A stretch of DNA of 64,000 nucleotides, from assembly GCF_003337715.1 (NCBI RefSeq), contig NZ_QPIX01000001.1, positions 186,001-250,000 on the forward strand. The letters run 5' to 3'. The DNA is from Ciceribacter lividus (lineage in GTDB: Bacteria > Pseudomonadota > Alphaproteobacteria > Rhizobiales > Rhizobiaceae). The notes beneath the pieces were generated by a model, which was not told where the DNA came from, made no database searches, and worked only from the letters and a program-made list of their open reading frames with translations. The translations under genes were made by a program, and so were the position numbers. This document shows, piece by piece, positions 12,814 to 52,203 of the stretch (position 1 is its first letter; every line of letters starts with the position of its first letter).

Positions 12814-13231
12814 CGAGCTGCTTCCTCATCCAGGTGATTGAAAAGTCGCCGGTGAAATTCTCCAAAGCACCGAAGACCTCGTAGCCCTGCCGCGCATAGG
12901 CGCGGCGGGCATCCGGGTTGATCGTGTCGATATAGGCGCCGGTGCAGCCGCGTGCCTTCGCCTCGTCCTCGGCCATCTGCAGCAGCCGCCCCGCGAGGCC
13001 CTGTCCGCGCAGGCGCTCCGGAATGTAGAGCATCGTCACGTAGAGCCAGCCGCGCCCGGTATAGCCGATGAGCCCGCCCTCGACCTTTCCCGCGCCGTCA
13101 CGGATCGGGATCATCAGGTCGCGCCGGTCGGTCGGCCCGAGCATCCTGTCGTTATGGGCGAGGATCGCATCACGGATCGCGTCGCGCGCTTCGTCGGGGA
13201 CGGTATCGGAGAGGGTGAGCTCGAGGGACAT
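12809..13231 (-). CDS. GNAT family N-acetyltransferase
   Basis: A 140-residue acetyltransferase with motif A in VTMLYIPERLRGQGLAGRLLQMAEDEAKARG (about 72-102) and motif B in AYIDTINPDARRAYARQGYEVFG. Substrate unknown. The first 20 codons and the 41 bases before its start are repeated 2,300 bases away at 15471-15571, where they form a truncated copy. This makes its upstream side one boundary of a rearranged cargo region. Confidence 0.88.
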   Translation of the reverse strand: MSLELTLSDTVPDEARDAIRDAILAHNDRMLGPTDRRDLMIPIRDGAGKVEGGLIGYTGRGWLYVTMLYIPERLRGQGLAGRLLQMAEDEAKARGCTGAYIDTINPDARRAYARQGYEVFGALENFTGDFSITWMRKQLA

Positions 13232-13271
13232 GGGGCGAGGGTAGGGGGAAGCGGGGGAGGAGTCGAGGGGG
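13171..13271. repeat. GNAT 5'-end repeat, copy 1
   Basis: These 101 bases match 15471-15571 at a constant offset of 2,300 with about seven mismatches. The 41 bases from the start codon outward (13231-13271) are identical in both copies; the mismatches all lie in the coding part. After 13271 the two copies diverge abruptly. Confidence 0.9.
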
Positions 13272-13949: not shown

Positions 13950-14103
13950 TTTTGTGGACTATTTATTGCCGGTCGGCGGCAGTCGCAATCGATTGTCGAA
14001 AAGCTACACCCGGGAACTAGTCATGCACGATGCCATCTTCTCGAGCATCGCGCAACTATGGGTGGTGACTCGCTTGAATTCCAGTCTCGACGGATAAGCC
14101 ATC

Positions 14104-15470: not shown

Positions 15471-15571
15471 CCCGGATTGTGTCGCGCGCTTCGTCGGGGA
15501 CGGTGTCGGACAGGGAGAGGTCGAGGGACATGGGGCGAGGGTAGGGGGAAGCGGGGGAGGAGTCGAGGGGG
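15471..15571 (-). pseudogene. Truncated GNAT gene, repeat copy 2
   Basis: Second copy of the 101-base repeat. It keeps the start codon at 15531 and encodes MSLDLSLSDTVPDEARDTIR, versus MSLELTLSDTVPDEARDAIR in the intact gene, then diverges. Some differences change the amino acid conservatively (E/D, T/S, A/T), as expected for an orthologue from another strain. The rest of the gene is absent. Confidence 0.8.
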
Positions 15572-31960: not shown

Positions 31961-33820
31961 ATGTTTGGCTGGTTCGAACAGCGACTCAATCCCTATCCGG
32001 CGGGTGTTCCGACCCTGCCGCCGAAAGGGCTCTTCCGCTTCTGCTGGTACTATTCAAAGCCGGCGGCGCCCTGGCTTCTCGGTGTGGCGATCTGCACGGC
32101 GCTGATCGCCGTCGGCGAGGTGACGCTCTTCCGTTTTCTCGGCGATATCGTCGACTGGCTTTCCAAGGCCGATAGAGAAACCTTCCTGCAATCGGAAGCT
32201 CCGCGGCTCATCGGCATGGCGCTCGTCGTCCTCGTCGGGCTGCCGCTCGTCGTGGCAATCGACTCCCTCATCATGCACCAGGTGTTGCTCGGCAACATGC
32301 CGATGATCGCGCGCTGGCAGATGCACCGCTTCCTGCTTCGGCACTCGATGACCTTCTTTGCCAACGAGTTCGCCGGGCGCGTCGCGACGAAGGTCATGCA
32401 GACCTCGCTTGCGGTGCGCGAAGGGGTGATGAAGGTGCTCGACGTCTTCGTCTACGTCGTTACCTATTTCATCTCGATGATCGTGATCGTCGCCACGGCC
32501 GATCTGAGGCTCGTCGCGCCGCTCGTCATCTGGGTTGTCGTCTACGTGTCGATCGTCAGCTATTTCGTTCCGCGGCTACGGAAGGTATCGGCCGATCAGG
32601 CGGATGCGCGCTCGATGATGACGGGCCGGATCGTCGACAGCTATACCAACATCGCGACGGTGAAGCTCTTCTCCCATGCTGGCCGCGAGGAGGACTACGC
32701 CCGCAACGGCATGGACGAGTTTCTCGTCACCGTGCACCGGCAGATGCGGATGGTGACGCTCTTCCACGTCCTCGTCTACGTCAACAACTGTATCGCGTTG
32801 TTTGCGGTCGGTTCCCTCGCCATCGCCTTCTGGCTGGGCGGCTCGATCTCGGTCGGCGCGATTGCCATCGCGATCGGCCTTGCCATGCGCATCAACGGCA
32901 TGTCGCAATGGATCATGTGGGAGGTCTCGGCGCTCTTCGAGAACATCGGCACCGTCTACGACGGCATGAAGATGATGACCAAGGCGCATGACGTCGTCGA
33001 TGCACCCGGCGCCAGGCCGCTCACCGTGGCGAAGGGCGAGATCGTCTACGATCACGTCCGTTTCCACTACGGCAAGGCGAAGGGCGTCATCGAGGACTTC
33101 TCGCTGGTCGTCAATCCGGGTGAGAAGGTCGGTCTGGTCGGCCGCTCCGGGGCCGGCAAGACGACGCTGATGAACCTGCTTCTGCGCTTCTACGACCTCG
33201 AGAAGGGAAAGATCCTGATCGACGGGCAGGACATCGTGACCGTGTCGCAGGACAGCCTGCGCTCGATGATCGGCGTCGTTACCCAGGACACCTCGCTCCT
33301 GCATCGCTCGATCCGCGACAACATCGCCTACGGCCGGCCGCAAGCGAGCGACGCGGAGGTGATCGAGGCGGCGAAGCGGGCGAATGCCTGGGAGTTCATC
33401 GAAGGTCTCGTCGACTACAAGGGCCGGACCGGCCTCGACGCCCAGGTGGGCGAACGTGGCGTCAAGCTCTCCGGCGGCCAGCGGCAGCGAATCGCGATCG
33501 CCCGGGTTTTCCTCAAGAACGCCCCGATCCTGGTGCTCGACGAAGCAACCTCGGCGCTCGACTCGGAAGTCGAGGCGGCAATCCAGGAAAGCCTGTTCTC
33601 GCTGATGGAGGGCAAGACGGTGATCGCGATCGCCCACCGGCTTTCGACGCTGACGCAGATGGACCGGCTGATCGTGCTCGACAAGGGCCGGATCATCGAG
33701 ACCGGCACCCATCAGGAGCTGGTGGCGCTCGGCGGCATCTACGCCGATCTCTGGAACCGCCAGTCCGGTGGCTTCCTCGCCGACCACGACCTCGACGAGA
33801 CGGAGCAGGCGGCGGAGTAG
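31961..33820 (+). CDS. ABC exporter, fused permease and ATPase (first of pair)
   Basis: A 619-residue half-transporter with a six-helix exporter domain (about 35-330) and a C-terminal nucleotide-binding domain: Walker A GRSGAGKTT, Q-loop VVTQDTSLLHRSI, signature LSGGQRQRIAIAR, Walker B ILVLDEATSALD and H-loop IAHRLST, all intact. Start 31961 has GGAG upstream. With the following gene it may form a heterodimer, although each has complete catalytic motifs and could homodimerise. Substrate unknown; lipids, peptides or drugs are typical of this exporter class. Confidence 0.92.
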   Translation: MFGWFEQRLNPYPAGVPTLPPKGLFRFCWYYSKPAAPWLLGVAICTALIAVGEVTLFRFLGDIVDWLSKADRETFLQSEAPRLIGMALVVLVGLPLVVAIDSLIMHQVLLGNMPMIARWQMHRFLLRHSMTFFANEFAGRVATKVMQTSLAVREGVMKVLDVFVYVVTYFISMIVIVATADLRLVAPLVIWVVVYVSIVSYFVPRLRKVSADQADARSMMTGRIVDSYTNIATVKLFSHAGREEDYARNGMDEFLVTVHRQMRMVTLFHVLVYVNNCIALFAVGSLAIAFWLGGSISVGAIAIAIGLAMRINGMSQWIMWEVSALFENIGTVYDGMKMMTKAHDVVDAPGARPLTVAKGEIVYDHVRFHYGKAKGVIEDFSLVVNPGEKVGLVGRSGAGKTTLMNLLLRFYDLEKGKILIDGQDIVTVSQDSLRSMIGVVTQDTSLLHRSIRDNIAYGRPQASDAEVIEAAKRANAWEFIEGLVDYKGRTGLDAQVGERGVKLSGGQRQRIAIARVFLKNAPILVLDEATSALDSEVEAAIQESLFSLMEGKTVIAIAHRLSTLTQMDRLIVLDKGRIIETGTHQELVALGGIYADLWNRQSGGFLADHDLDETEQAAE

Positions 33821-33936: not shown

Positions 33937-35850
33937 ATGCTGTTTCGCCCGATCGCCCGCCTCTTCGAGAACTGGATCGACCCCTTTGCGCGTTCGGACG
34001 ACCTGCGTCCGCCGGAAGGGACCGCGGCGTTCATCTGGTTCTACGTGCGCCAGGCGAAATGGGCCTTCGCCGCCATGGCCGTTCTCGGCGGCGCGGTCGC
34101 CATGCTGGAGGCGGCGCTCTTCTGGTTCGTCGGCAGGCTCGTCGACCTCCTCGACACCGTGCCGCGGGAAGGCGGCTGGAACGGACTGATCGCAGCGCAC
34201 GGCGTGGAGCTCGCGGTGATGGCGCTGACCGTGCTCGTCGTGCGCCTCGTCGTGGTGACGCTCGGCGCGCTGGTCGAAGAACAGGTGATCGTCCTCAACT
34301 TCTTCAATCTCGTGCGCTGGCAGGCGCATGTGCACGTGGCGCGGCAGGCGCTTTCCTTTTTCCAGAACGACTTTTCCGGCCGCATCGTCACCAAGGTCTG
34401 GTCGGCGGGGCAGGCGACCGGCGATCTCATGACCTCGCTGCTGCAGGTCGCCTGGTTCATGGTCATCTATACGGTTTCGACCATGGCGCTCGTCGCCCAG
34501 CTCGACTGGCGGCTGGCGGCGATCATCGCCGGCTGGGTGGTCATCTTCCTCCTGCTCGCCCGCTACTTCGTGCCGCGCATCCGCCGCCACGCCCGGGCGA
34601 CGGCGGAAGCCGCCTCGATGCTGAACGGCCGGCTCGTCGACAGCTATTCCAATATCCAGACGTTGAAGCTTTTCGGGCGCGAGCGCGAGAACGATCATTA
34701 TATCCGTGCCGGCTTCGACCGCTTCCAGGCGACACTCACGCCCTTCGCCCGGCTCCTGACCGGCGTGCGGGCGGCGCTTGCGACGCTCTCGGGTGTGATG
34801 ATCCTGATGGTTGCCTTCCTTTCGGTGGATCTCTGGTTCAAGGGCGCTGTCACCGCTGGCGGCGTCGCTTTCACGCTCGGCCTCGTGCTGCGCCTCAACA
34901 TGCTGCTCGGCCGCATGATGACGCAGATGAACAGCATCATGCGCAATATCGGCACGATCCAGAACTCGGCCGAGCTCGTCTCGAAGCCGCTGGCACTTGT
35001 CGACCGTCCCGGCGCCGGGGAACTCAAGGTGGCGCGACCGGAAATCCGGTTCGAGGACGTCTCCTTCCACTATGGCAGGAAGAGCGGCGTCATCGACCAC
35101 CTGACGCTGACCGTCCGGCCCGGCGAGAAGGTCGGCATCGTCGGACGTTCGGGCGCCGGCAAGTCGACGCTCGTCAACCTGCTGCTGCGCTTCTACGACC
35201 TCGAAGGCGGGCGTATCCTCATCGACGGGCAGGACATCGCCACCGTGACGCAGGAAAGCCTGCGCCGGCAGATCGGCATGGTGACGCAGGATACGGCGCT
35301 GCTCCATCGCTCGATCCGCGACAACATCCTGTTCGGCCGCCATGACGCCGATGAAAAACAGCTCGAACGCGCGGCGGAGCGGGCCGAGGCGCTCGATTTC
35401 ATTCTGCGGCTCGAAGACCAGCGCGGACGGCGCGGCTTCGATGCACATGTCGGCGAACGCGGGGTGAAGCTCTCAGGCGGTCAGCGCCAGCGGATCGCCA
35501 TCGCCCGCGTGATGCTGAAGGATGCGCCGATCCTCGTTCTTGACGAGGCGACCTCGGCGCTGGACTCGGAAGTCGAGGCGGCGATCCAGTCCAATCTCGA
35601 CCGGCTGATGCAGGGCAAGACGGTGCTGGCGATCGCCCACCGGCTGTCGACGATCGCGGCCCTTGACCGGCTCGTGGTGATGGACAGGGGTCGGATCGTC
35701 GAGGAGGGGACCCACGCCGAACTGGTCGCCGCGGGCGGGCTCTATTCCGAGCTCTGGGCGCGGCAGTCGGGCGGGTTTCTCGGCGCGGGCGACCGCGAGG
35801 GTGGCGAGGGGAGGGTGTCCTCCGTCTCGGCGCCGATGCCGCGGCGCTGA
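33937..35850 (+). CDS. ABC exporter, fused permease and ATPase (second of pair)
   Basis: A 637-residue half-transporter closely similar in layout to the preceding gene, sharing the N-terminal FIWFYVRQAKWAFAAMA and the DSYSNIQTLKLFGRE loop. Walker A GRSGAGKST, Q-loop MVTQDTALLHRSIRDN, LSGGQRQRIAIAR, ILVLDEATSALDSE and IAHRLSTI are intact. The gap to the first exporter gene is 116 bases, so co-transcription is likely. The C-terminus has a short Gly/Ser-rich extension. Probably a paralogous pair from tandem duplication, possibly a heterodimer. Confidence 0.92.
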   Translation: MLFRPIARLFENWIDPFARSDDLRPPEGTAAFIWFYVRQAKWAFAAMAVLGGAVAMLEAALFWFVGRLVDLLDTVPREGGWNGLIAAHGVELAVMALTVLVVRLVVVTLGALVEEQVIVLNFFNLVRWQAHVHVARQALSFFQNDFSGRIVTKVWSAGQATGDLMTSLLQVAWFMVIYTVSTMALVAQLDWRLAAIIAGWVVIFLLLARYFVPRIRRHARATAEAASMLNGRLVDSYSNIQTLKLFGRERENDHYIRAGFDRFQATLTPFARLLTGVRAALATLSGVMILMVAFLSVDLWFKGAVTAGGVAFTLGLVLRLNMLLGRMMTQMNSIMRNIGTIQNSAELVSKPLALVDRPGAGELKVARPEIRFEDVSFHYGRKSGVIDHLTLTVRPGEKVGIVGRSGAGKSTLVNLLLRFYDLEGGRILIDGQDIATVTQESLRRQIGMVTQDTALLHRSIRDNILFGRHDADEKQLERAAERAEALDFILRLEDQRGRRGFDAHVGERGVKLSGGQRQRIAIARVMLKDAPILVLDEATSALDSEVEAAIQSNLDRLMQGKTVLAIAHRLSTIAALDRLVVMDRGRIVEEGTHAELVAAGGLYSELWARQSGGFLGAGDREGGEGRVSSVSAPMPRR

Positions 35851-38071: not shown

Positions 38072-38950
38072 ATGAAAAAGCTTGTAACGAGCATCGCGCT
38101 GATCGCCGCCATGGCGGGCTTCGGCGCCTCTTCCGCGGTCGCGCAGGAAGCAACCGATCTTGCTGCGGCGGCGGAACACGCCGCGGCTGCCGGCCACTAC
38201 CCGATCTTCAAGCCGAAGAACGTCGAGTGGACCTTTGCCGGTCCGTTCGGCAAGTACGACAAGGGCCAGCTGCAGCGCGGCCTCAAGGTCTACAAGGAAG
38301 TCTGCTCAGCCTGTCACTCGATGAGCCTCGTTTCCTTCCGCACGCTCGAGCACCTCGGCTACTCGGAAGAGCAGGTCAAGGCGTTTGCCGGCGAGTATGA
38401 GGTTCAGGACGGTCCGAACGCCGACGGCGAGATGTACACCCGCAAGGCGGTTCCGTCGGACTACTTCCCGTCGCCCTTCCCGAACAAGGAAGCAGCTGCG
38501 GCTGCCAATGGCGGCGCCGCTCCGCCGGACATGTCGTTGCTCGCCAAGGCTCGCGGCATCGAGCGCGGTTTCCCGACCTTCATCTTCGATATCTTCACTC
38601 AGTATCAGGAAGGCGGTCCGGACTATATCTACTCGCTGCTGACCGGCTACCAGGCGGCGCCGGAAGGCGTCGAAGTGGCTGAGGGAACGAATTTCAACCC
38701 CTACTTCGCAGGCGCCTCTGCCTTGAAGATGGCTCCGCCGCTCAGCGACGGCCAGGTCACCTATGACGACGGGTCGCCGGAAACGCTCGACCAGTACGCG
38801 AAGGATGTTGCCGCGTTCCTGATGTGGGCTGCCGAGCCGCACCTCGAAGAGCGCAAGCACACCGGCTTCATGGTCATGGTGTTCCTCGCGATCTTCACCG
38901 CTCTGGTCTACCTGACGAAGAAGTCGGTCTACGCGAACAAGGAACACTGA
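38072..38950 (+). CDS. petC: Cytochrome c1
   Basis: A 292-residue periplasmic c-type cytochrome with a cleavable signal (MKKLVTSIALIAAMAGFGASSAVA), one heme-binding site CSACH near residue 76, the axial methionine region ALKMAPPLSDGQV, and a C-terminal membrane anchor (FMVMVFLAIFTALVYLTKKSVYA). It passes electrons from the Rieske centre to soluble cytochrome c. Third gene of petABC, closed by a strong terminator. Confidence 0.96.
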   Translation: MKKLVTSIALIAAMAGFGASSAVAQEATDLAAAAEHAAAAGHYPIFKPKNVEWTFAGPFGKYDKGQLQRGLKVYKEVCSACHSMSLVSFRTLEHLGYSEEQVKAFAGEYEVQDGPNADGEMYTRKAVPSDYFPSPFPNKEAAAAANGGAAPPDMSLLAKARGIERGFPTFIFDIFTQYQEGGPDYIYSLLTGYQAAPEGVEVAEGTNFNPYFAGASALKMAPPLSDGQVTYDDGSPETLDQYAKDVAAFLMWAAEPHLEERKHTGFMVMVFLAIFTALVYLTKKSVYANKEH

Positions 38951-41708: not shown

Positions 41709-42812
<1,104 letters not shown>

Positions 42813-43042: not shown

Positions 43043-43354
43043 ATGAGTGACAATGATATTGCGGTCAAGGTGAAACTGGGCACCAGGCCCAGGATCGAAC
43101 GGCCGAGACTCTACAAGGTCATCCTCGTCAACGACGACTACACGCCGCGGGAATTTGTGGTCGTCGTGCTCAAGGCGGTTTTCCGCATGAGCGAGGACAT
43201 GTGCTACCGGGTGATGATCACGGCGCACCAGAAGGGAAGCTGCGTCGTCTGCGTCTATGTCCGCGACATTGCCGAAACCAAGGCCAGGGAAGGCACGGAG
43301 CTCGGAAAGCAGGCGGGCTTCCCGCTGATGTTCACGACGGAGCCGGAGGAGTGA
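43043..43354 (+). CDS. clpS: ATP-dependent Clp protease adaptor ClpS (paralogue)
   Basis: A 103-residue N-degron adaptor that delivers substrates to ClpA. The ligand-binding residues lie in YKVILVNDDYTPREFVVVVLKAVF and the metal/acidic loop and MITAHQKGSCVVCVYVRDIAETK region. The sequence suggests the second alphaproteobacterial ClpS type and not the clpA-linked copy. ATG 43043 is chosen because the residues before it are not family-like. The last 121 bases are repeated at 43876-43996, and a GGAGGAG within its 3' end serves the next gene. Confidence 0.92.
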   Translation: MSDNDIAVKVKLGTRPRIERPRLYKVILVNDDYTPREFVVVVLKAVFRMSEDMCYRVMITAHQKGSCVVCVYVRDIAETKAREGTELGKQAGFPLMFTTEPEE

Positions 43355-43359
43355 AGGGC

Positions 43360-43767
43360 ATGCGCAATACCAACTGGAGCCTCATCCGGAACATGATGAA
43401 CGCGGCGATCGATTTCTGTGAGCGCGTCGAAGCGGCGGGTTATACTGAAGCCGATCGGGATGCCGACGTCGTGGTCAATGAACAGCCCGTGACGGTCCAG
43501 GATATCCTCACAAGCGCGTGGACCTATCCGGAGAACATGCGTTACGAGATTATCCGCATGCGCTATGAGGATCGCACTAATCTCGCCTACGTCCCAGAGA
43601 TGTCGCGCATCCTAACGGCCATGGCCGAGGCCTCGGCCGAGTTGGTAGGTGGCAAGGGGCTAGCTGAGGAGCCTGTTCGCAGGATGATTACATGGTTCGA
43701 AAAGGATGGTGCAGTCTTGCTGGAGACTGCGATCAAGCATCGACGTTCTGCTGCGGCTACAGAATGA
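43360..43767 (+). CDS. Hypothetical protein, cargo gene X at the clpS-pth junction
   Basis: A 135-residue soluble, mostly helical protein (MRNTNWSLIRNMMNAAIDFCERVEAAG, TVQDILTSAWTYPENMRYEIIRMRYEDRTN). No recognised domain. It starts 6 bases after the clpS stop and uses the GGAGGAG in the clpS end as ribosome-binding site, so it would be translated from the clpS transcript. Base composition is slightly more AT-rich than clpS. It is followed directly by remnants of pth and clpS, which marks it as one of two alternative cargos at this site. Confidence 0.65.
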   Translation: MRNTNWSLIRNMMNAAIDFCERVEAAGYTEADRDADVVVNEQPVTVQDILTSAWTYPENMRYEIIRMRYEDRTNLAYVPEMSRILTAMAEASAELVGGKGLAEEPVRRMITWFEKDGAVLLETAIKHRRSAAATE

Positions 43768-43818
43768 CCTGCCGCTTGGTCGATTGAGTTCCAAGTCTGG
43801 CGACGGGGCAGGCGGGAA

Positions 43819-43880
43819 TCAATCGTCCTTCTTGCCGAACATCCGCTTCAGCATCTCCGCCATCGATCCGGTTTCGGGAA
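43819..43880 (-). pseudogene. Remnant of the pth 3' end
   Basis: Sixty-two bases match 44469-44530, the end of the intact pth, at an offset of 650 with about six mismatches. On the minus strand it encodes [19 protein letters not shown] and a stop, against [19 protein letters not shown] in the intact gene. It breaks off at GGGAAGCT, where clpS sequence begins. Confidence 0.85.
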
Positions 43881-43996
43881 GCTGCGTCGTGTGCGTCTAT
43901 GTCCGCGACATCGCCGAGACCAAGGCCAAGGAAGGCACGGAGCTCGGCAAGCAGGCGGGCTTTCCGCTGATGTTCACGACCGAACCGGAGGAGTAG
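43876..43996 (+). pseudogene. Remnant of the clpS 3' end
   Basis: These 121 bases match 43234-43354 at a constant offset of 642 with about ten differences. All but one are synonymous (the exception is Arg to Lys), and even the stop codon differs (TAG for TGA). It encodes GSCVVCVYVRDIAETKAKEG and onward to FTTEPEE but has no start. The pattern of silent changes shows divergence under selection before the fragment was placed here. Confidence 0.9.
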
Positions 43997-44005
43997 CGGC
44001 GCGGC

Positions 44006-44464
44006 TCAGCGCGGTGGAATTAGGCGGATTTCCAGCCCGTGCTTCGTCGTGTCGAAGCCGCAGCTTCGGTAGAAGTCGAGTGTGCCCGGTCGTTTGGCGC
44101 CCGTCATCAGCCGCACGGTGTAGCACCCAGCGTGAAAAGCGGCGTCGATTGCGGCTTGCAGGGTCCGGCGTCCCAGGCCGGTGCGGCGATGCCGGGCATC
44201 GGTGACGACGTTTTCGATGAAGGCGTACGGCATGCCGCCGCGTGTGAGATTGGGCACCACGATCAGCGTGCAGGTGCTGGCGAGCGTACCGTCGACGAAG
44301 GCGCCGAACACGGTGAGACCGTCGTGACCGAGGATTTCATCGAAGCGGACTTCCGCGAGATCGGGCGCCAGCGGCAGATCGCTCTCGATCAACTGGTCGT
44401 AGAGTGACAGCAGACCTTGTAGATCCGGCTTTCCCAGCGCCCGTATCTCGACCGGGTTCGCCAT
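44006..44464 (-). CDS. GNAT family N-acetyltransferase, cargo gene Y at the clpS-pth junction
   Basis: A 152-residue acetyltransferase with motif A in AFIENVVTDARHRRTGLGRRTLQAAIDAAFHAG (about 81-113) and motif B in VRLMTGAKRPGTLDFYRSCGFD. Substrate unknown. ATG 44464 follows the pth stop by 4 bases, implying translational coupling with pth. Its 3' end abuts the clpS remnant, so it occupies the second of two cargo slots. Confidence 0.88.
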   Translation of the reverse strand: MANPVEIRALGKPDLQGLLSLYDQLIESDLPLAPDLAEVRFDEILGHDGLTVFGAFVDGTLASTCTLIVVPNLTRGGMPYAFIENVVTDARHRRTGLGRRTLQAAIDAAFHAGCYTVRLMTGAKRPGTLDFYRSCGFDTTKHGLEIRLIPPR

Positions 44465-44468
44465 CGCA

Positions 44469-45185
44469 TCAATCGTCCTTCTTCGAGAACATCCGCTTCA
44501 GCATTTCCGCCATCGGTCCGGTTTCGGGCAGCTTCTTCGGCTGGGCGTTGTTGCGGGCCTGACGGATGTGCGACTGGCCGGCCGGTTTCTCCGGCTTCGC
44601 TTTCGCCGGCTCCTCCTTGCCGCCGGTCGCAAGTGCGAGCTTGTTCATGAGCTTCGACTCGTCGGGCTGGAGCAGCAGGTCGGCATTGTCGGCGATCGCA
44701 TCGAGCAGCGGATCGAGCCAGGTCCGGTCGACCTTGGCAAAATCGCCGAGCACATGGCCGTGCACGCGCTCCTTGTCGCCGGGATGACCGATGCCGAGCC
44801 GGAGCCGGCGGTAGTCCTTGCCGCAATGGGCGTCGAGCGACTTCAGCCCGTTATGGCCGCCATGGCCGCCGCCGGTCTTCATCCGCGCCTTGCCGGCGGG
44901 AAGGTCGAGTTCGTCATGGATCGCCACGATGTCGGCAGGCTTCAGCTTGTAGAAGCGCATGGCCTCGCCCACCGCCTCGCCGGAAAGGTTCATGAAGGTC
45001 TGTGGCTTCATCAGCAACACCTTCTCTCCGCCGATCTCGCCTTCGGCGATCTCCGCCTTGAATTTCTTGCTCCAGGGCGAGAAGCGGTGGCGGCGATGGA
45101 TCGCATCCACCGCCATGAAGCCGATATTGTGCCGGTTCTCCGAATACTTGGCGCCCGGATTGCCGAGGCCGGCGATGATGAGCAT
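44469..45185 (-). CDS. pth: Peptidyl-tRNA hydrolase
   Basis: A 238-residue enzyme that frees tRNA from stalled peptidyl-tRNA. Signatures: [26 protein letters not shown] with the catalytic histidine, [39 protein letters not shown]. The C-terminal 45 residues are a charged, low-complexity rhizobial extension ending in KRMFSKKDD; its last part is repeated as the remnant at 43819. Start ATG 45185 is family-typical; a frame to 45224 is rejected. Confidence 0.96.

Positions 45186-50688: not shown

Positions 50689-52203
<1,515 letters not shown>

Follow-up and report, generated by a model that had tools for sequence, protein, structure and literature searches.

How did a single junction between clpS and pth in Ciceribacter lividus come to hold the 3' ends of both genes twice, with a different gene attached to each pair? 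By the window we mean the whole stretch of DNA that was analysed, 64,000 nucleotides in length. A preliminary description, made from the letters of this DNA, had proposed that a foreign clpS'-Y-pth segment was joined to a resident clpS-X-pth arrangement by homology-facilitated illegitimate recombination (HFIR), leaving two alleles of one cargo slot side by side. We examined the locus itself, the same interval in related genomes, and the sites at which the repeated tails differ.

Anatomy of the Junction

The intact clpS (43043-43354, forward strand; Pfam ClpS at 88.1 bits, cut-off 23) follows ychF (41709-42812, reverse strand) along the window, ends in TGA and is the second ClpS paralogue of the genome, the other being located at C5:148776. 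Its 3' end (43234-43354, forward strand) is the first copy of the repeated clpS tail, denoted e1, and 5 nt past its stop begins gene X (43360-43767, forward strand), which encodes 135 amino acids and belongs to no named family. After a 51-nt spacer (43768-43818) comes a remnant of the pth 3' end, p1 (43819-43880, reverse strand; nhmmer with a pth-tail profile, E 7.6e-19), which keeps 20 codons in an open frame and then a TGA stop. It meets a second clpS 3' end, e2 (43876-43996, forward strand; nhmmer E 1.3e-27), with a TAG stop and without a clpS start. Gene Y (44006-44464, reverse strand), a GNAT acetyltransferase of 152 amino acids (Pfam Acetyltransf_1, PF00583, 56.1 bits, cut-off 20.7), starts 4 nt past the stop of the intact peptidyl-tRNA hydrolase gene pth (44469-45185, reverse strand; Pfam Pept_tRNA_hydro, 227.4 bits, cut-off 27), whose 3' end (p2, 44469-44530, reverse strand) is the second copy of the pth tail. 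Every element of the arrangement that had been described from the sequence, the duplicated ends as well as X and Y, is present.

A repeat finder returned both tails as direct repeats (43234-43352 and 43876-43994 for clpS, 93%; 43818-43889 and 44468-44539 for pth, 89%). Over the 121 nt up to their stops, the clpS tails show 10 differences: seven are synonymous third positions, one is a replacement (K82R) and two fall in the stop codon (TGA/TAG); the pth tails show 6 differences in 62 nt. The longest identical runs are 20 nt between the clpS tails (43250-43269 in e1, 43892-43911 in e2) and 18 nt between the pth tails. The remnant p1 has Ser at a site where Pro stands in all 63 intact pth tails of the genus, and GTC (Val73), which both clpS tails carry, is absent from every other intact clpS among the 63 genomes. 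Both remnants, p1 and e2, would be dead scars.

The two remnants meet at GGGAAGCT (43876-43883), which in a position-by-position comparison is exact against clpS (8/8) and agrees at 7/8 positions with the genome's own pth (GGGCAGCT), so the description of this joint as one of microhomology held. The same GGGAAGCT is present in 15/63 congeneric pth tails and in the clpS of three of the 63 congeners (the source genome, G053 and G042). When 200,000 random clpS/pth joints were drawn, an exact overlap of at least 7 occurred in ~0.03% and of at least 8 in 0.008%. The joint also creates a putative open frame of 96 codons (43706-43996, forward strand) that ends in ClpS tail sequence. A scan for promoter and terminator consensus sequences found nothing.

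The clpS-pth Interval in the Genus

The interval was compared in 63 same-genus genomes, source genome included, and the presence of X and of a Y-type GNAT was scored by tblastn (E <= 1e-4, 63 loci). X was found in 11 intervals, a Y-type GNAT in 28, both in one (the source genome only) and neither in 25; this means that genomes with X only (10) and with a Y-type GNAT only (27) exist, as had been predicted. The interval can be as short as 10 bp or as long as 3.4 kb, and its gene sets differ. By tblastn at the 63 loci, a second clpS tail is present in the source genome alone, and none turned up elsewhere when the 62 intervals of more than 40 bases were searched; the double structure, whose presence in relatives would have spoken for an old duplication, was seen in 0 of the 62 other congeners.

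X starts 3-5 nt past the clpS stop in 11/11 X-bearing congeners, and the start of Y 4 nt past the pth stop recurs in G053. These spacings place X at the tail of the clpS operon and Y at the tail of the pth operon; the operons are convergent, and X is probably co-translated right behind clpS. The idea of X and Y as strict alternative cargo of a single slot is weakened accordingly, because X goes with clpS and Y with pth: the two versions do coexist in the window, as the preliminary description held, but they sit in two different operons. The ClpS proteins of the ten other X-bearing congeners are 61-63% identical to that of the window; these ten may form one related group, and the non-overlap of X and Y may then come from kinship.

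A second pth-tail remnant was detected in G034 (L056), at E 5.5e-5 in a pth-tail profile search that covered the 62 intervals of more than 40 bases, where the next hit (L045) had E 0.42 and the best reversed control 0.14. It is located at interval positions ~1915-1967, at the start of a GNAT frame, where a pth-GNAT operon would have its pth; the intact pth is ~1.1 kb away, and the reading frame of the remnant is decayed. A profile search of the G034 interval for a clpS tail found none. This remnant is likely a second, older fusion scar.

Gene X and Gene Y

At high identity, X is known from the source genome and one relative only (P0002, 89%, the closest one, on a 1,733-base contig), in a database clustered at 90%. 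A family profile of X was positive in 13/63 congeners, and in G053 and G042 the same profile search did not find X. In a sample of the family, X occurs in 8/394 genomes, source genome included, the other seven reaching at most 57% over the main match. A scan of genome contigs for a relative of X found none, a search of phage records gave no match, and no genome with a clpS-X-pth order at high identity was found when one was sought as donor. Plasmid records gave seven X matches at 40-61%, and the three of these seven whose surroundings were examined all lack clpS next to X. One X relative lies on a Sinorhizobium chiapasense plasmid (L194), between a ParD/ParE pair and, on its opposite side, toprim and strawberry-notch-like genes; X is therefore also plasmid-borne.

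The GC3 of X is 0.674. As a sign of transfer this low value was rejected, since X frames of congeners are equally low (0.64-0.73 in the eight that were measured out of ten, with 0.83-0.89 for the clpS alongside). Against curated families, Pfam included, X gave no match over the cut-off of the respective family. Its AlphaFold2 model has a pLDDT of 85, and the fold comparison of this model with solved DinB-like four-helix proteins was weak.

As for Y, the simple succession clpS-Y-pth is seen in G053, whose Y has 89% amino acid identity; among the GNATs of the other 26 Y-type loci, six, in further congeners, are orthologues at 76-80% (beside pth in five of them) and twenty are at 41-52%. Database clusters with Y relatives at 88-92% number five, and in the tree the window Y, that of G053 and six relatives from the database make up a supported 8-row set (98/96).

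Which Half Is Resident

In ~41 kb of flanking DNA, G042 is the sister of the window, at a distance of 4.7-5.6%, and G053 lies farther off (8.9-10.0%). The tail copies differ at 16 sites; G053 agrees with the Y side at 13 of them and with the X side at 3 (8 and 2 of the ten clpS-tail sites, 5 and 1 of the six pth-tail sites), and G042 agrees with the Y side at 7 and with the X side at 9, a tie. The distance to G053 is 5.9% for the Y-side clpS tail and 9.2% for the X-side tail; the latter is 7.6% from G042. Since the Y half matches G053 at 13/16 sites and the X half at 3, X is the likely newcomer; the supported set that Y forms with its relatives, and X being rare and without a match in G053 and G042, point the same way. 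On these comparisons we regard Y as probably the resident and X as the newcomer, a direction that seems roughly twice as probable as its reverse. The earlier claim that the Y half is foreign is for its part doubtful, with Y beside pth in G053 and five further congeners.

That claim had come with a proposed test for donor affinity running into pth, and the pth sites, taken alone, look like such affinity: of the derived pth sites of the window, 13 are common with G053 versus 5 with G042. The derived ychF sites show the reverse (6 with G053, 14 with G042). In addition, the ychF-clpS spacer is 4.4% apart between the window and G053, which is below the backbone value of 8.9-10.0%. Both observations could mean that G053-like DNA is foreign here. 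However, a replaced slot in G042 would give the same pattern of derived pth sites, and judging from the sequence comparisons this slot was probably replaced, as its GNAT is divergent (51% identical to the window Y and nearest, at 54-63%, to GNATs of other congeners, in a comparison that took in 19/23 slot GNAT frames), and its flanks have diverged from both neighbours (pth 3' end and ychF-clpS spacer 11-14% from window and from G053 alike). We would therefore ascribe the derived pth sites common with G053 to the replacement in G042.

The TGA stop and Arg82 of the first clpS copy are common to the backbone sister G042. Window-only changes are in excess in this copy, but only suggestively so: set against 714 background windows they rank in the top 4-8%, and those in e2 rank in the top 14-20% of 723. 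Residues R15, R22 and V73 of the first copy differ from G053 and G042 and match the database protein P0026, the nearest database ClpS (96%, on a 3.09-Mb contig); they may accordingly be characteristic of the clade and not of imported DNA. Because GTC for Val73 occurs in both clpS tails, and Val73 in P0026, the donor and the recipient of the fusion were probably close kin.

Proposed Origin and Alternatives

The dead clpS tail has 2-3 private changes and the working copy 5-8 (rough binomial P 0.0004 to 0.026, assuming 40-50 free sites in the working tail). Drift in place should have left the dead tail with the larger number; because it has the smaller, the copies would mostly have diverged before they were joined; the claim that they diverged as working genes and were joined later is in this sense mostly borne out. 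A fusion of once-separate working alleles is thereby supported over an old tandem duplication in situ whose copies drifted in place. The latter we hold to be very improbable: the Val73 codon GTC common to both tails fits it, but besides the imbalance of private changes, the two units carry unlike genes (X without a Pfam match over its cut-off, Y a GNAT) that differ in sequence, strand and length, and no relative has the double structure. An assembly artefact that fused two strain haplotypes appears just as remote. The genome is a draft of 32 contigs, which leaves room for such an error; against it stand an assembly contamination estimate of 0% and a joint stretch with no N, and assemblers do not usually join sequences across an overlap of only 8 bases.

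The reading that we prefer, and to which we give somewhat less than an even chance, is that a short clpS'-X-pth' fragment of a close relative was joined or closed via the 8-base GGGAAGCT and entered the resident clpS-Y-pth by one crossover in the clpS tail. The fragment ends, at GGGAAGCT of pth and of clpS, would have been joined to give a unit of ~642 bp. A single crossover of the RecA type within the 121 nt of the clpS tail, for which the 43250-43269 run is the best place, would then have integrated it in the Campbell fashion (by single crossover), doubling the clpS tail without deletion and leaving both flanks resident. X behind clpS and Y behind pth would keep their operon positions, and X would be gained without loss of Y. 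Several features of the window agree with this course: the clpS, Y and pth of a G053-like arrangement are all intact, with no resident DNA lost, and the clpS tail is duplicated as a target in direct orientation around the insert (43234-43354 and 43876-43996). Of the ten clpS-tail sites, 9 fit a single crossover between sites 15 and 36, and 8 fit without a crossover. Integration of a circle would account for the target duplication and for the intact resident DNA no less well than HFIR does, and it is preferred over HFIR because of one site (15) and the absent deletion. If the clpS tails recombined with each other, X would be lost again, and if the pth tails did so, Y would be lost; such losses should be rare, because the longest identical runs are only 20 and 18 nt.

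The reverse course, with a resident clpS-X-pth that received a foreign clpS'-Y-pth by HFIR (homology in pth, microhomology at the joint), or a mirror clpS'-Y-pth' circle that entered via the pth tail, we consider rather unlikely. It would account for the microhomology, for the 13 versus 5 derived pth sites, for the ychF-clpS spacer being near to G053, and for the TGA and Arg82 that the first copy has in common with its sister G042. However, Y beside pth is usual in the clade and X is rare, so that Y would have to be lost and then regained; the window-G053 distances in Y (13.0%) and in the pth 3' end (178 nt, 7.9%) are not below those of the backbone (8.9-10.0%) and of the rest of pth (5.1-5.6%), respectively; and G042 is far from both window and G053 in Y and the pth 3' end. 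HFIR as the cause, as first proposed, keeps its microhomology joint, but there is no deletion, and it is one of at least two mechanisms giving such anatomy. Still somewhat less probable is a course in two steps, in which a microhomology tandem duplication of clpS'-Y-pth' was followed by replacement of the first Y with X from the clpS-X-pth of a relative. The final structure would be identical, and tandem duplication and homologous replacement are each common kinds of events, but this course requires an extra event and its intermediate was found in 0/63 genomes.

Relation to Known Systems

Flexible genes at conserved junctions are replaced via homologous recombination in their flanks, and the clpS-pth interval resembles such sites in its range of sizes and varied gene sets; unlike in them, neither version was replaced here and both were kept. 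A search for literature reports of a clpS-pth fusion locus gave none among the matches listed.

HFIR is reported from S. pneumoniae, A. baylyi and P. stutzeri, and at a low rate from E. coli; it uses homology at one end and mostly 3-10 bp of microhomology at the other, generally deletes resident DNA, and may, as the authors argue, chiefly concern species with natural competence (PMC3240628). The locus is like HFIR in its one microhomology joint within 3-10 bp, the homology on the other side and an insert of less than 1 kb. It is unlike HFIR in that a similar resident length is generally lost in the latter, while the locus loses none and has its gene tails duplicated. The same study found that in E. 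coli conjugation, partial degradation plus ligation plus a single crossover gave HFIR-like products ~10x oftener than HFIR (PMC3240628). With ligated fragments integrated in this way, the locus has in common the target as flanking direct repeats and the absence of deletion; it differs from them in being natural, with its ~642 bp unit deduced from the sequence. The circular intermediate is putative, and E. coli rates may not be valid for rhizobia.

The locus would be a fossil of bacterial gene gain rather than a new kind of system. Its value is that of a natural product of illegitimate recombination, apparently between near relatives, that has preserved both alternatives and in which the joint, the tails of both parents and the likely crossover region are still readable. 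Repeated gene tails at convergent operon junctions could serve to count these events across genomes, a question for which transformation and conjugation in the laboratory are otherwise the main approach. To hypothesize further, and with a good deal of doubt, the clpS-pth junction may be a recurrent site of additive gene gain, at which sub-kb fragments of convergent operon ends form minicircles by microhomology and enter by one crossover in a gene tail. If this were true, the 642-bp fusion would be a fresh example and the pth-tail-GNAT scar of G034 an old one, and each time an operon-tail gene would have been gained without loss, with a two-tail scar left behind.

Other Observations in the Window

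Two stretches, 38240-38800 and 51200-51900, are rich in window-only substitutions relative to G053 and G042 and are possible short imports. Elsewhere in the window there is a 99-nt direct repeat, 94% identical (13173-13271 and 15473-15571, 2.3 kb apart), a 54-nt repeat pair at 14103 and 16701, and a pair of tandem repeated stretches (32599-33667 and 34602-35670) with a spacing of 2003 that are 72-81% alike and are probably paralogous genes.
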